This document shows positions 41,556 through 49,672 of a stretch of DNA of 64,000 nt, piece by piece. The DNA comes from Bacteroidetes bacterium GWF2_43_63 (GTDB lineage: Bacteria; Bacteroidota; Bacteroidia; Bacteroidales; DTU049): assembly GCA_001769275.1 (NCBI GenBank), contig MEOQ01000040.1:124001-188000 (forward strand), in the 5' to 3' direction. The position numbers were made by a program, and so were the translations under genes. Every line of letters starts with the position of its first letter. Within the stretch, counting starts at the first letter, position 1. Under the pieces are notes generated by a model, which was not told where the DNA came from, ran no database searches, and worked only from the letters and a program-made list of their open reading frames with translations.

Positions 41556-42014
41556 ATGAAAAAAACACTCATATACGGATACGGCAATGCAGGCCGCATG
41601 GACGATGGCATCGGCGAACGCTTTGTGGAAATGATGGACAAGTGGATTGAAGAAGAAAAAATCGAAAATATTTTTACCGATTGCAATTATCAGCTCAACA
41701 TCGAAGATGCAGCAACGGTTTCGGAATACGATGCCGTAGTTTTTGTTGATGCCAGCATTGTGGAGGACGTTGAAAATTTCCGTCTTGAAAAAGTCGAACC
41801 CAACGATGCGACTATCGAATTTACTATGCATGCGGTGTCCACTTCATATGTGATTGATCTGTGCAAAAAGATTTACAGCAAAACTCCCGAAGCATATGTG
41901 TTGCATGTGCGCGCATACGAATTTGATTTTAGCGAAGAAATGACTCCTAAAGCGGTGGAGAATATGCTTGACGCGTTTGCTTTTCTGAAAGAATTTTTAA
42001 AGAAACAGTCGTAG
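41556..42014 (+). CDS. hoxW: HoxH maturation endopeptidase
   Basis: A 152-residue HybD/HycI-type protease with the opening LIYGYGNAGRMDDGIGERFVE (the GxGN and Asp nickel-sensing residue), a second Asp in VFVDAS, and His in TMHAVSTSYV (about 92). It clips the C-terminal extension of HoxH after nickel insertion. I set the start at 41556 because the longer frame has no family sequence and would cross the promoter box. It follows its target operon but has its own promoter. Confidence 0.87.
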   Translation: MKKTLIYGYGNAGRMDDGIGERFVEMMDKWIEEEKIENIFTDCNYQLNIEDAATVSEYDAVVFVDASIVEDVENFRLEKVEPNDATIEFTMHAVSTSYVIDLCKKIYSKTPEAYVLHVRAYEFDFSEEMTPKAVENMLDAFAFLKEFLKKQS

Positions 42015-42156: not shown

Positions 42157-42230
42157 TTATAACTCGCCATAAGTGGGTAAAAAATAGTACTTCTGGCGAG
42201 TTATAAATGTATAATTGGCCATAAGTTGTA
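42157..42230. repeat. Left repeat cluster of the ATPase unit
   Basis: TTATAACTCGCCA at 42157-42169 pairs perfectly with TGGCGAGTTATAA at 42194-42206 (24-base loop). A third, imperfect direct copy (TATAATTGGCCATAAGTTGT) lies at 42210-42229, ending 8 bases before the -7 box. That position is where an operator would sit. Confidence 0.75.
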
Positions 42231-42237
42231 AATTTTG

Positions 42238-42245
42238 TATATTTG
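42238..42245 (+). promoter_or_regulatory. Promoter -7 box of the repeat-bounded ATPase
   Basis: TATATTTG, 22 bases before the ATG at 42268 and directly after the repeat cluster. Confidence 0.5.
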
Positions 42246-42267
42246 TGGCAGCTTATAATAATCAGTT

Positions 42268-43686
42268 ATGAGAGCAATTGTCGGCAGAGATTTTGAAAAA
42301 GAAGAACTTGAAAGCTTCTATAAATCCGAAGTATCGGAATTTGTGGCCGTGTATGGCCGTAGAAGAGTGGGAAAGACTTTTCTTATCCGCGAGCTGTTCA
42401 GAGACAGAATGGAATTTTATCTGACAGGGCTTGCCAATGGTGGTTTCAGCGAGCAGATGGTCAACTTCAATCTGGCTTTGCGTGAGGCAGGTTTGAAAGA
42501 TTTACCCTTGGCGAAAAACTGGATTTATGCATTTCAGCAATTGCGCACGCTGATTGAAAAATCAAGAAAGAAAAAGAAAGTGATTTTTCTGGATGAAATG
42601 CCCTGGCTCGATACGCCGAAATCGAAGTTCCTGAGCGCGCTGGAGCATTTCTGGAATTCATGGGCCTCGGGCAGAAATGATATTCTATTGATTGTTTGTG
42701 GTTCTTCCACTTCGTGGATTACAGATAAATTACTGAACAATAAAGGAGGTTTACACAATCGCATCACGCATCAATTGCGGCTGGAGCCGTTTACATTAAA
42801 GGAGTGCGCCGCATACGTCAAATCACTGAAATTCACCTGGAGCCAGCATCAGGTGGCTGAGTGCTATATGGCGCTTGGTGGTATTCCGTATTACTGGAGT
42901 TTGCTGAAAAAAGGGAGGAGTGTTGACCAGAACCTAGACCACTTGTTTTTTGGCGCCAATGCCCGTTTAAAAGACGAGTACAAAAACCTGTATGCTGCTT
43001 TGTTTAAAAACTCCGATCGGTACATGCAGGTTGTGGAGGCATTAAGCAAAAAGAGCTGTGGTTTGACCCGGCAGGAAATTGTTGAAAGCATTGAAGAAAG
43101 CAGTGGAGGAGGGTTAACCAAGATTCTGGATGATCTTGAAAACTGCGGCTTTATCCGTTCATTTCTGGCTTTTAACAAGAAAAGTCGTGACCGTATTTTT
43201 CAGCTTTCCGACTTTTACACCTTGTTTTATTTCAGGTTTGTGCGACGCTCAGGCAAGGATAAAAATTACTGGAAGAGCATGCTGGACACCACGCAGCATC
43301 GTGCCTGGGCGGGTTATGCCTTTGAACAACTTTGCACCATGCATGTTGATCAGATGAAAAACGCTCTCGGAATTGCCGGTGTATATTGCAATGTGTATTC
43401 CTGGCGCAGCCCTGCTGGCACTGATAAAGGTACTCAGATAGACCTTATTATTGAGCGGAACGATAATGTAATTAATTTGTGTGAGATGAAATTCTCCGTA
43501 AATCCTTTTGTTATTAATAAAAAATATGCGGATGAACTGAGAAATAAATTTGGTACATTCAGGAGTGTAACAAATACAAAAAAATCCGTATTCCTTACTT
43601 TTGTTTCATCGTCTGGATTGGCTCAGAATGCTCATTCCGGAATAATTCAATGCGAGATTGAATTAAAAGATCTGTTTGCTATGTAA
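42268..43686 (+). CDS. AAA ATPase with DUF234/PD-(D/E)xK-like C terminus
   Basis: A 472-residue protein. ATPase signatures: Walker A VYGRRRVGKTFLIREL (about 28-43), Walker B KKVIFLDEMPWLD (about 107-119) and a sensor-like IVCGSSTSW. A winged-helix region (KSCGLTRQEIVESIEESSGGGLTKILDDLENCGFI, about 265-300) leads to a C-terminal DUF234-type domain with a nuclease-like core QIDLIIERNDNVINLCEMKFS (D ... ExK, about 390-410). These ATPases are very widespread accessory genes in anaerobic bacteria and archaea; their role is unknown. Here the gene fills the whole interval between long inverted repeats, which suggests it travels or regulates itself as a unit. Confidence 0.85.
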   Translation: MRAIVGRDFEKEELESFYKSEVSEFVAVYGRRRVGKTFLIRELFRDRMEFYLTGLANGGFSEQMVNFNLALREAGLKDLPLAKNWIYAFQQLRTLIEKSRKKKKVIFLDEMPWLDTPKSKFLSALEHFWNSWASGRNDILLIVCGSSTSWITDKLLNNKGGLHNRITHQLRLEPFTLKECAAYVKSLKFTWSQHQVAECYMALGGIPYYWSLLKKGRSVDQNLDHLFFGANARLKDEYKNLYAALFKNSDRYMQVVEALSKKSCGLTRQEIVESIEESSGGGLTKILDDLENCGFIRSFLAFNKKSRDRIFQLSDFYTLFYFRFVRRSGKDKNYWKSMLDTTQHRAWAGYAFEQLCTMHVDQMKNALGIAGVYCNVYSWRSPAGTDKGTQIDLIIERNDNVINLCEMKFSVNPFVINKKYADELRNKFGTFRSVTNTKKSVFLTFVSSSGLAQNAHSGIIQCEIELKDLFAM

Positions 43687-43689
43687 AAG

Positions 43690-43739
43690 TTATAACTCGC
43701 CACAACTATGTATTTTAACCCACTTATGGCGAGTTATAA
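43690..43739. repeat. Right repeat cluster of the ATPase unit
   Basis: TTATAACTCGCCA at 43690-43702 and TGGCGAGTTATAA at 43727-43739 form a hairpin starting 4 bases after the ATPase stop. The hairpin could act as a transcription terminator for both the ATPase and the nik operon, which ends at 43756. Confidence 0.75.
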
Positions 43740-43755
43740 ATTCTGAAAATATTTT

Positions 43756-44574
43756 TCAGTGCTTGCCGTGTTTATGAAAGACATAATGCGAATGATAGTG
43801 TTTATGCACTTCTTCGCCATGTTTGTGTATGTGTTCGTGAATAAGATTTGCACTAATCAGAAATTCCTCATCGTTCAGAATTTGCGAAGCTGTTCCGGTT
43901 TTTTTAATTGTGTGATCTTCTGAAAGCACAGCCACACGTGGCTGCAGATGATCGACCAGATCGAGGTGATGGGTTGAAAACACAATGGTTTTTCCGGCAC
44001 GATTTAGTTCGAAAAGCAATTCAATGAAATATGTTTGTGATTTCGGATCGAGTCCGGCAAGTGGTTCGTCCACCAGAATAAGCTCCGGGTTTACGGTCAG
44101 AACAGAGGCAATGGCCACTTTCTTTTTTTCGCCTCCCGAAAGTGAGAGAACCGATCGGTCTTTCAGATTTTCGATTTCCAGCGTTTTTAGTAATTCCAGG
44201 GCACGAGTTTCAGCTTCATCCTGCGAAATATTTAGCTGGAGCGGGGCAAAGAGCAGTTCTTCGAAAACAGTGCTGCAAAACAGTTGCACATCCGGGTTTT
44301 GAAACACAAACGCTGTCTTCTGTCTAAACTGTGCATTGAAATATTGGTCCTTCAGCGATTTTTCGGTCACTTGTTTTTCATGAAACAAAACCTCCCCCTG
44401 ATCTGGAAAAACCAACCCGTTCATGATACTCAGCAGTGTGGACTTTCCGCTGCCATTTTGCCCCATTATGCAAAGCATTTCGCCTTTTATTACATCAAGG
44501 CTGATCTGCTGCAGTGCCGGTATTTTCCCAAAATAGGAATAGGAAATATTTTTTAGTTCAAGTATTTTTTCCAT
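43756..44574 (-). CDS. nikO: Nickel/cobalt ECF transporter ATPase NikO/CbiO
   Basis: A 272-residue ABC ATPase that powers the nickel importer. Walker A MGQNGSGKSTLLSIM (about 37), Q-loop FVFQNPDVQLF, signature LSLSGGEKKKVAIAS (about 138) and Walker B LILVDEPLAGLD (about 160). The ATG at 44574 gives MEKILELKNISYSYFG; the frame upstream of it has no family sequence. The last 30 residues hold about ten His (HEHIHKHGEEVHKHYHSHYVFHKHGKH), a probable nickel-binding tail. It is the last gene of nikR-OMP-nikM-nikN-nikQ-nikO, 4 bp after nikQ. Confidence 0.88.
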   Translation of the reverse strand: MEKILELKNISYSYFGKIPALQQISLDVIKGEMLCIMGQNGSGKSTLLSIMNGLVFPDQGEVLFHEKQVTEKSLKDQYFNAQFRQKTAFVFQNPDVQLFCSTVFEELLFAPLQLNISQDEAETRALELLKTLEIENLKDRSVLSLSGGEKKKVAIASVLTVNPELILVDEPLAGLDPKSQTYFIELLFELNRAGKTIVFSTHHLDLVDHLQPRVAVLSEDHTIKKTGTASQILNDEEFLISANLIHEHIHKHGEEVHKHYHSHYVFHKHGKH

Positions 44575-49058: not shown

Positions 49059-49077
49059 CAAAAAACTGAGGGAAGAC

Positions 49078-49128
49078 AAAAGATAAAAGGACAAAGACAA
49101 AAGTTGGATACAAAGACAAAAGATAAAA
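49078..49128. repeat. Purine-rich low-complexity tract, left side
   Basis: Repeats of AAAGACAAAAGATAAAAGG type. A tract of the opposite orientation (CTTTTGCCTTTTATCTTTTG) lies at 49635-49672, so the two flank the four-helix-bundle gene as imperfect inverted repeats. Confidence 0.6.
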
Positions 49129-49159
49129 ACACTTAAGAGACAAGTCTCTTAAGTGTTTT
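49126..49159 (-). terminator. Long hairpin terminator after the four-helix-bundle gene
   Basis: A perfect 16-bp stem (49126-49141 with 49144-49159; core CACTTAAGAGAC / GTCTCTTAAGTG), followed on the minus strand by TTTTTATCTTTT. The helix is unusually long with a tiny loop. Confidence 0.7.
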
Positions 49160-49227
49160 AAGGTTATAAGTATAAAAACTCACATTTAAAGAGATAAGTG
49201 CACTTATATAATCTGAGAACAAAGTAG

Positions 49228-49575
49228 TTATTTGCGGGTTTTTTGAACGATGCTACCCAGAATAAGTTTTAATTCGAGTGATTCCTGTATAAGTTGTTTT
49301 ATTTCGTTAGTTTTCAAATCAGTTTCAGAAACAGCAATAATCAATCTGAGCCAATAGTTTGATTCACGCATCTCGCGCAGAGAAATTCTTGTTTTGTTAT
49401 TAAAATCAGCTTTTGAAGAGCCTGCCTGAGCTTCTTCATAATTTGCTCCACTTGAAGTTGCGCTTTTAACAAGTTGACCACACATTACTTTGTATTCAAT
49501 TGTCTGTGGTAAAGTTCTGACAAGTTTTATCGTTCGAACTGCAAATTCGAAAAGTCTTTTTTCTAAATCATTCAT
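49228..49575 (-). CDS. Four-helix-bundle protein (S23/IVS family)
   Basis: A 115-residue helical protein: MNDLEKRLFEFAVRTIKLVRTLPQTIEYKVMCGQLVKSATSSGANYEEAQAGSSKADFNNKTRISLREMRESNYWLRLI. This is the 23S rRNA intervening-sequence (S23) family, a scattered gene of unknown role in Bacteroidota. It splits hypB from hypA and is bracketed by inverted low-complexity tracts and its own hairpin, which suggests insertion. Confidence 0.88.
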   Translation of the reverse strand: MNDLEKRLFEFAVRTIKLVRTLPQTIEYKVMCGQLVKSATSSGANYEEAQAGSSKADFNNKTRISLREMRESNYWLRLIIAVSETDLKTNEIKQLIQESLELKLILGSIVQKTRK

Positions 49576-49634
49576 GTTATTTAGGTTTAACTGTGTACTG
49601 ATTCAGCTTTTTATCTTTGAACCTTCGCCCTTTT

Positions 49635-49672
49635 TTATCTTTTGCCTTTTATCTTTTGTCTTTTATCTTTTC
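49635..49672. repeat. Pyrimidine-rich low-complexity tract, right side
   Basis: CTTTTGCCTTTTATCTTTTG and further CTTTTATCTTTT copies; inverted counterpart of the tract at 49078-49128. Confidence 0.6.

Follow-up and report, generated by a model that had tools for sequence, protein, structure and literature searches.

Positions 42157 to 43739 of a 64,000-nucleotide stretch of Bacteroidetes bacterium GWF2_43_63 (contig MEOQ01000040.1, positions 124,001 to 188,000; the whole stretch is called the window below) hold a single gene, for an ATPase with a nuclease-like end, enclosed by inverted repeats. The protein matches the candidate defense family PDC-S27, and we compared this unit with its relatives in other genomes. 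The unit comprises the following features, in window coordinates.

42157..42206, no strand: upstream palindrome, half-sites TTATAACTCGCCATAAGT (42157-42174) and ACTTCTGGCGAGTTATAA (42189-42206) around a 14-nt loop, from sequence comparison
42210..42258, no strand: degenerate palindrome over the promoter, half-sites TATAATTGGCCATAAGT (42210-42226) and TTTGTGGCAGCTTATAA (42242-42258), recognized by eye and below the score threshold of the box scan
42238..42245, plus strand: TATATTTG, a -7-like box between the half-sites of the degenerate palindrome, found by eye with coordinates checked
42268..43686, plus strand: gene of the 472-residue ATPase - winged helix - PD-(D/E)XK protein (PADLOC PDC-S27, Pfam ATPase_2), start codon at 42268
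42355..42378, plus strand: Walker A region GRRRVGKT, residues 30-37, from an alignment of 42 sequences
43012..43164, plus strand: predicted winged-helix region, residues 249-299, from the predicted structure, with a co-variation peak at residues 271-295
43258..43683, plus strand: predicted C-terminal nuclease domain, residues 331-472, with E353, D392, E406 and K408 invariant in 32 sequences
43690..43739, no strand: downstream palindrome, 4 nt past the stop codon, half-sites TTATAACTCGCCACAACT (43690-43707) and ACTTATGGCGAGTTATAA (43722-43739)

An initial annotation, made from the sequence alone, had described an exact 22-bp inverted repeat around a lone ATPase gene, with four perfect copies of a 13-mer and a fifth, imperfect copy near the promoter, and each of these was borne out. 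Read as its reverse complement, the 22-mer at 42157-42178 recurs without a mismatch at 43718-43739, and the window has no other perfect inverted repeat of at least 22 bp with a spacing of up to 2 kb; a second, of at least 16 bp, lies at 49073-49663. Complementarity extends imperfectly (86%) to 50-nt arms at 42157-42206 and 43690-43739. The 13-mer TTATAACTCGCCA stands in forward orientation at 42157 and 43690 and inverted at 42194 and 43727. These four places are its only exact occurrences in the 3.98-Mb genome, where the control pattern, read backwards, occurs 0 times; the repeat that the initial annotation had singled out for a genome-wide search is therefore unique to the locus, with no solo copies by exact match. 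Because TTATAACTCGCCA is present in both orientations within each end, each end is itself a palindrome, with 18-nt arms and a 14-nt loop upstream and 16-nt arms and an 18-nt loop downstream. The imperfect copy (42209-42231, 74%) forms, with 42242-42258, the third and degenerate palindrome around TATATTTG, which fits TAnnTTTG, a consensus we take to be the -7 box of Bacteroidota promoters. Four half-sites thus precede the gene and two follow it. The inverted match between the two ends scores 68, against a median of 20 and a maximum of 47 in 480 comparisons of mismatched loci, and is not due to chance. The 20-mer TTATAACTCGCCATAAGTGG was not found in viral contigs.

The protein matches the PDC-S27 profile of PADLOC (PDLC04984) over its full length (residues 1-470, 664 bits), as do 42 of 42 aligned relatives. 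A Pfam search of the protein returned ATPase_2 (59.2 bits), only ATPase families at E <= 0.01, and no transposase domain, the Y1 transposase included; a sequence search of PDB gave no match, NCBIfam gave none above cut-off, and no further homolog occurs in the same genome at E <= 0.001. Walker A residues G30, R31, R32, R33, G35, K36 and T37 and Walker B residues D109 and E110 are invariant in the 42 sequences, and V34 varies. Structure prediction from this alignment was confident (mean predicted local distance difference test score, pLDDT, 91.7; predicted template modeling score, pTM, 0.89). The best structural matches of residues 1-324 are two archaeal ATPases, PABY2304 (2qen; Z 20.7, 3.2 Å, 302 residues aligned) and SSO1545 (2fna; Z 20.1, 3.0 Å, 295 aligned), which leave the nuclease domain uncovered, followed by NLR and Orc/Cdc6 proteins. 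By its Walker motifs and predicted fold, this part belongs with the STAND/Orc-like AAA+ ATPases of ATPase_2. Our reading of the predicted structure places the winged helix in helices 249-259, 268-275 and 281-292 and a strand at 296-299. Folded alone (pLDDT 91.4), the C-terminal domain had AF1548 as its sole structural match below 0.001 (E 1.9e-4), then MspJI and McrC; it aligned with EndoMS (Z 8.7, 4.1 Å, 111 residues), AF1548 (Z 8.5, 2.7 Å, 107 residues) and FokI (Z 7.2). Although these scores are modest, the predicted fold and the E..D..ExK residues are those of a PD-(D/E)XK domain, in keeping with the nuclease-like end noted initially. Since E353, D392, E406 and K408 are invariant in 32 sequences, the window copy, which has an open frame and all catalytic residues, looks catalytically intact.

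Relatives comprised the best 80 of 561 from a scan of genome contigs and matches in 297 genomes of the Muribaculaceae, the family of the genome that holds locus L027 (L and G numbers are our labels for loci and genomes); 58 of the 297 had matches at E <= 1e-140. With further stretches added there were 158 loci, or 156 without the overlapping L138 and L140. Upstream DNA sufficed for a palindrome scan at 152, which include loci taken twice (8 identical genes); removal of duplicates left 149, a number that still counts one locus twice, as L134 and as L137.0. Short flanks cut these to 143 for matching upstream with downstream arrays, 138 for translated flank repeats and 147 for the -7-like box.

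A palindrome upstream of the gene is a design common to the relatives, with stem sequences that change from gene to gene. The best palindrome in the upstream 200 nt scored at least 12 at 98 of 152 loci, compared with 0 of 456 dinucleotide shuffles and 0 of 152 gene interiors; downstream palindromes reached that score at 39 of 152. When the L027 stem was searched in its own genome with up to 3 mismatches, its own four sites and one half-site with 2 mismatches were recovered, and the backward control also gave one. In both genomes searched, the window's and that of L027, the stem is private to its cassette. Segatella and Emticicia plasmid relatives have upstream palindromes scoring 17 and 14. 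In Wolbachia phage WO, L208 (MN180249.1; S27 protein identity 38%) adjoins head genes and has an upstream palindrome scoring 7, with inverted half-sites ACCGCGG...CCGCGGT that by eye are repeated; the one haloarchaeal relative examined (L207) has no upstream palindrome (score 5). L043 carries a very long A+T-rich palindrome with 38-nt arms, about -178 to -84 upstream of its S27 gene.

A -7-like box was found at 106 of 147 loci, and at 44 of these 106 it is bridged by a palindrome scoring at least 7, compared with 4 of 106 when the flanks were shuffled. This arrangement bears on the nature of the palindromes. Their long stems, and the stem 4 nt past the stop codon in the window, are what RNA hairpins acting as transcription terminators or attenuators would look like. 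Where the upstream stem encloses the -7-like box, however, part of the stem precedes the transcript, and termination would require neither an identical stem before and behind a gene nor stems that differ between genes. We regard RNA hairpins as a highly unlikely explanation. The initial annotation had also considered an autoregulated gene whose repeats serve as operators and terminators; the position of the palindromes and a weak co-variation with the winged helix, described below, favor operators, and terminators do not stand as the main role.

The upstream region matches the region past the stop codon with a score of at least 40 at 33 of 143 loci, against 2 of 711 mismatched pairs (30 loci and 0 pairs at a score of at least 45). 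Four of the 33 (L035, L063, L080 and L130) represent duplicated host DNA, which leaves about 29 of 143 with true two-sided arrays. These are direct in 20 cases and inverted in 9, and 20 of the 29 start 0-10 nt past the stop codon. Inverted matching ends, as in the window, at L027 (55 bp, 100%), at L136 and at others, would suit a classical transposon with terminal inverted repeats. That explanation is contradicted by the 20 direct cases, by about 114 of 143 loci without a downstream copy, by target duplications that range from 23 to 206 bp, and by the lack of a transposase domain in Pfam. With inverted ends not found in all members and no fixed duplication length (23, 110, 206 bp and others), we rejected the terminal-inverted-repeat transposon, which we consider the least probable of all explanations weighed here. 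Two loci have unusual arrangements of their own. At L125 the upstream array consists of three tandem copies of ~127 bp (-367 to -25), and a single 98.9% copy downstream (64-151) includes a promoter-like stretch before another gene, so that arrays may give the next gene a promoter. At L051, five inverted matches of 42-121 bp (70-91%) join the 1.5-kb flanks, as if the gene lay midway in an old inverted duplication.

Borders were examined in 47 pairs of loci with protein identity of at least 80% and flanks of at least 1 kb (L134 omitted). In three pairs the likeness extends to the end of a 1-kb flank, and in three more the flanks are homologous in part; the other 41, made up of 31 loci in 10 clusters, lie at unrelated places. 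Among these 41, shared DNA stops between -60 and +10 of the stop codon in 37 (one is shorter and three are longer, to a maximum of +39). Its start falls at -150 to -80, close to where the upstream array has its outer edge, in 21 pairs; 10 pairs start further out and 10 closer in.

One insertion is represented by both a filled and an empty site. In G029, L129 occupies the end of an acetyltransferase-like gene. Its flanks, once joined, align across the join in G314 (query positions 1-395 at 93% and 445-700 at 91%); the site is filled in G029 and G324. A second genome, G316, also crosses the join, by only 21 bases (1-371, 92%). Of the 101 genomes searched with these flanks 87 matched, most only in the acetyltransferase gene and stopping before the join. 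Host DNA gives way to the array inside the last codons of the acetyltransferase-like gene, a 110-bp host sequence is repeated behind the ATPase, and a short downstream piece of host DNA is displaced there. The repeat and the displaced DNA indicate that insertion was not a clean cut-and-paste event.

Direct duplications of host DNA were detected around further copies: L118 (206 bp, 100%), L130 (172 bp, 94%, in a repeat-rich stretch), L113 (138 bp, 74%), L035 (127 bp, 80%), L080 (43 bp, 86%), L128 (38 bp, 92%, short), L087 (36 bp, 89%, end of a transketolase-like gene) and L063 (23 bp, 100%, directly past the stop codon). The maximum score of direct flank repeats among 336 cross pairs was 44. 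Translated flank repeats scoring at least 55, arrays included, occurred in 26 of 138 own pairs versus 0 of 276 cross pairs. We did not take as target duplications the direct repeats of L044, L071 and L089, or that of L040 (553 bp, 92%), which lies over 500 bp away from the gene. In G383 the genes that flank L063 lie ~90 bp apart without an ATPase, by weak matches (79% and 68%).

Relatives also reside on mobile replicons. Plasmids contributed 21 records, 19 with at least 80% coverage and all below 60% identity, and phages contributed 7, of which 5 have at least 80% coverage. The contigs of L137 (G068:C3) and L139 (G231:C3) repeat with periods of ~14.8 and ~15.4 kb at 99.8-99.9% identity, and their units are thus probably circular; the 14.8-kb unit of L137 carries relaxase, ParA, resolvase, radical SAM and outer-membrane genes. 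Judged by these comparisons of sequence, the PDC-S27 family is horizontally mobile. The mobile cassette first proposed in the initial annotation accordingly holds for the family, on account of unrelated places, an empty site and target duplications. It does not hold as a terminal-inverted-repeat transposon: arrays are two-sided at only about 29 of 143 loci and in 20 of these direct, and shared DNA ends at the stop codon in 37 of 41 pairs.

How the gene moves admits more than one answer. It may be a phage-defense nuclease gene that is shuffled passively by host recombination and repair and kept by selection, with palindromes that are operators and downstream arrays that are by-products of duplication. 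The match to PDC-S27, an abundant defense candidate that awaits validation (PMC12988326, PMC13356809), agrees with this, as do palindromes at promoters, irregular junctions such as the displaced host DNA at the L129 site, and the failure to see amplification within genomes. Against it, shared DNA in 10 separate clusters ends near the array on one side and at the stop codon on the other, with the flanks gone, which is more regular than passive capture predicts, and downstream arrays 0-10 nt past the stop codon in 20 of 29 cases are likewise too regular. We consider passive shuffling a substantial possibility, somewhat short of even. Its likelihood and that of the self-recognizing cassette proposed below overlap and do not sum to one.

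Free-standing homing endonuclease genes and the fungal mitochondrial atp6 insertion element, in which the inserted nuclease gene is accompanied by the 3' end of a gene, foreign or duplicated, offer another model. Here the nuclease would cut a cassette-free target, and repair would copy the cassette in and carry donor flank along. The likeness lies in a nuclease gene joined to duplicated gene 3' ends, with diverged copies, at L087, L035 and L113; filled and empty alleles at one site (L129) and the lack of visible amplification within a genome also fit. Yet 41 of 47 close pairs have no flanking DNA in common (no search was made for short target motifs), the conserved sequence adjoining the gene is its own array, and S27 differs from those elements in that close relatives lack shared flanks and that an ATPase and private arrays are added. 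Homing of this kind appears improbable.

Over 119 loci, with near-duplicates above 85% removed, array similarity followed protein similarity with a Spearman coefficient of 0.245. After whole-protein identity was regressed out, the partial correlation peaked over residues 261-300, with a maximum of 0.164 at 271-295 that 0 of 500 permutations reached under a null that ignores relatedness; the second-highest region, residues 96-120, reached 0.085. As residues 271-295 lie in the winged helix of the predicted structure, stem similarity tracks the winged helix best, albeit weakly. Pairs with dissimilar arrays share 45% identity in the winged helix versus 48% elsewhere in the protein. The winged helix probably binds the half-sites of its own palindromes; we go no further than that, given a small effect, a permutation test blind to relatedness, and a residue-level signal that is not specific to the helix.

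We think it slightly more probable than not that the window gene and its relatives are autoregulated, self-recognizing, horizontally mobile one-gene cassettes, each with a private palindrome array. Each such cassette would be made up of a gene with its promoter and of palindromic half-sites in a private array, and would move between genomes as a package. Its winged helix would read the half-sites of its own cassette. From the position of the palindromes we infer autorepression: reading at the promoter would shut the gene off, and cross-talk among cassettes in one cell would be avoided. Where a second array exists, the protein would also mark the far end of the cassette. ATP-driven assembly on the arrays would position the nuclease, whose cuts may allow the cassette to enter broken DNA by copying or joining, with 20-200 bp of target duplicated. 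Long and variable duplications could arise if the cuts are far apart or if repair is replicative. That the cassette's own nuclease, rather than host recombination, drives insertion is the least certain part of this proposal.

Several observations weigh against a self-recognizing cassette. Only one solid empty site, that of L129, was obtained. For L118, among 49 genomes, the left and right flanks were never matched together outside its own genome, with only the right-hand gene or short pieces found; because no empty site was found, the perfect 206-bp duplication may stem from assembly. For L113, among 297 genomes of which 31 matched, no genome linked the two flanks through the duplicated stretch; matches reaching past the join break off inside that stretch, which the left copy at L113 would explain as well. 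Nor was there a sign of amplification inside one genome. Twenty genomes with several sampled copies, mostly at E <= 1e-140, were compared after exclusion of G068 and G231 for their doubled copies. The best of 48 within-genome pairs reached 0.806 and the next 0.605, and the nearest relative was in the same genome for 2 of 52 copies. Movement is thus between genomes, not by amplification within one, and this pattern fits autorepression and self-exclusion and also simple horizontal transfer of a defense gene. Fifty-four of 152 loci lack an upstream palindrome scoring at least 12, the ~114 of 143 loci noted above have no matching downstream array, and the -7-like boxes of the window, where the palindrome is degenerate, and of L086 in a congener fall below the bridging threshold (score of at least 7). 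The co-variation is weak, with a permutation null blind to relatedness. Winged-helix identity among the most similar arrays is 62% versus 61% elsewhere in the protein, and single-residue co-variation is not concentrated in the winged helix, the top two residues being 24 and 91. Finally, the flanks of the window copy itself showed no duplicated host DNA.

The immediate neighbors of the window copy lie outside the cassette. The names hoxW and nikO, like those given to other neighbor and target genes (hydrogenase, transketolase, acetyltransferase, DUF1016-like nuclease, portal, FKBP), were assigned in the initial annotation or by eye; ABC_tran is a Pfam match.

41559..42014, plus strand: left neighbor, a small gene after the hydrogenase cluster, labeled hoxW initially and unconfirmed (a single Pfam match, below cut-off)
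43756..44574, minus strand: right neighbor, a convergent ABC transporter ATPase gene (ABC_tran, 110.5 bits), labeled nikO initially

In the congener G010, L086 encodes a protein 72% identical and lies behind the same left neighbor as the window gene. By eye its palindrome layout resembles that of the window, with outer palindromes that are direct there and inverted in the window. A second congener, G008, has hoxW with no ATPase behind it; a tRNA and a recombinase-like gene come next (by eye), and its relative of the right neighbor is elsewhere, beside another neighbor. In contrast to the pairs at unrelated places, hydrogenase DNA adjoining the unit is shared within the genus over at least 2.6-5.2 kb, a range limited by the ends of the stretches compared. 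Comparison with G008 established no empty site for the window copy. As counter-evidence to its reading, the initial annotation had named a unique repeat combined with a gene whose place does not change among relatives. Half of this applies: the repeat is unique in its genome and the G010 gene follows the same hoxW, whereas G008 has hoxW without the gene and other relatives are at unrelated places. The window copy is a resident member of the family, and these comparisons gave no evidence that it moved recently.

The palindrome trait may extend beyond PDC-S27. DUF4143, which we take to be PDC-S01, is by sequence a separate family from S27 with less regular arrays. We sampled 30 DUF4143 loci (L177-L206), of which L196 was dropped as its frame was not found. 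Flanks matched (score of at least 40) at 11 of the remaining 29, versus 4 of 812 cross pairs, and the trait may therefore reach past one family; at L188 and L190 a single palindrome sequence flanks the gene left and right. The window's own genome holds 10 DUF4143 genes (e.g., G000:C40:252088-252567). A bolder idea, and one we consider rather unlikely, is that PDC-S27, perhaps with PDC-S01, represents a new class of autonomous mobile element that has no known transposase or integrase and is built from an Orc-like ATPase, a winged helix and PD-(D/E)XK. The protein of such an element would recognize a fast-evolving private array at its own promoter, autorepression would keep it single-copy, and copying of the cassette into DNA with nicks or breaks would leave duplications of the target that are long and vary in length.

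Repetitive extragenic palindromic (REP) elements with RAYT transposases likewise pair a single gene with palindromes it is thought to recognize. The S27 cassettes share this organization and differ in that Pfam finds no Y1 transposase and the two genomes searched have no dispersed palindromes. Among the matches listed in a search of titles and abstract openings of open-license literature, preprints excluded, we found no private palindromes or cassette borders for these genes, which leaves their absence unproven. REPINs are the subject of PMC3116915. According to PMC12988326, PDCs are single-gene systems derived by 'guilt-by-embedding', with validation pending for most. The counts given there are 3503 in archaea and 4562 in bacteria for PDC-S27, an ATPase fused to PD-(D/E)XK like the window protein, which matches it over its full length. 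For PDC-S01, also an ATPase with PD-(D/E)XK, they are 9986 and 29,494. PDC-S27 is counted 2865 times in rumen genomes in PMC13356809, and the portions consulted of that paper and PMC12988326 make no mention of the private arrays, cassette borders or target duplications described here. Another family, DUF1703, has a similar build according to PMC1913061.

If PDC-S27 and PDC-S01 genes are self-recognizing mobile cassettes, inventories of defense systems would in part count mobile elements, and their 'embedding' in defense islands may result from insertion. The private palindromes constitute a predicted DNA target for each protein. If stem and winged helix change together, the family would provide a natural set of matched DNA-binding specificities.

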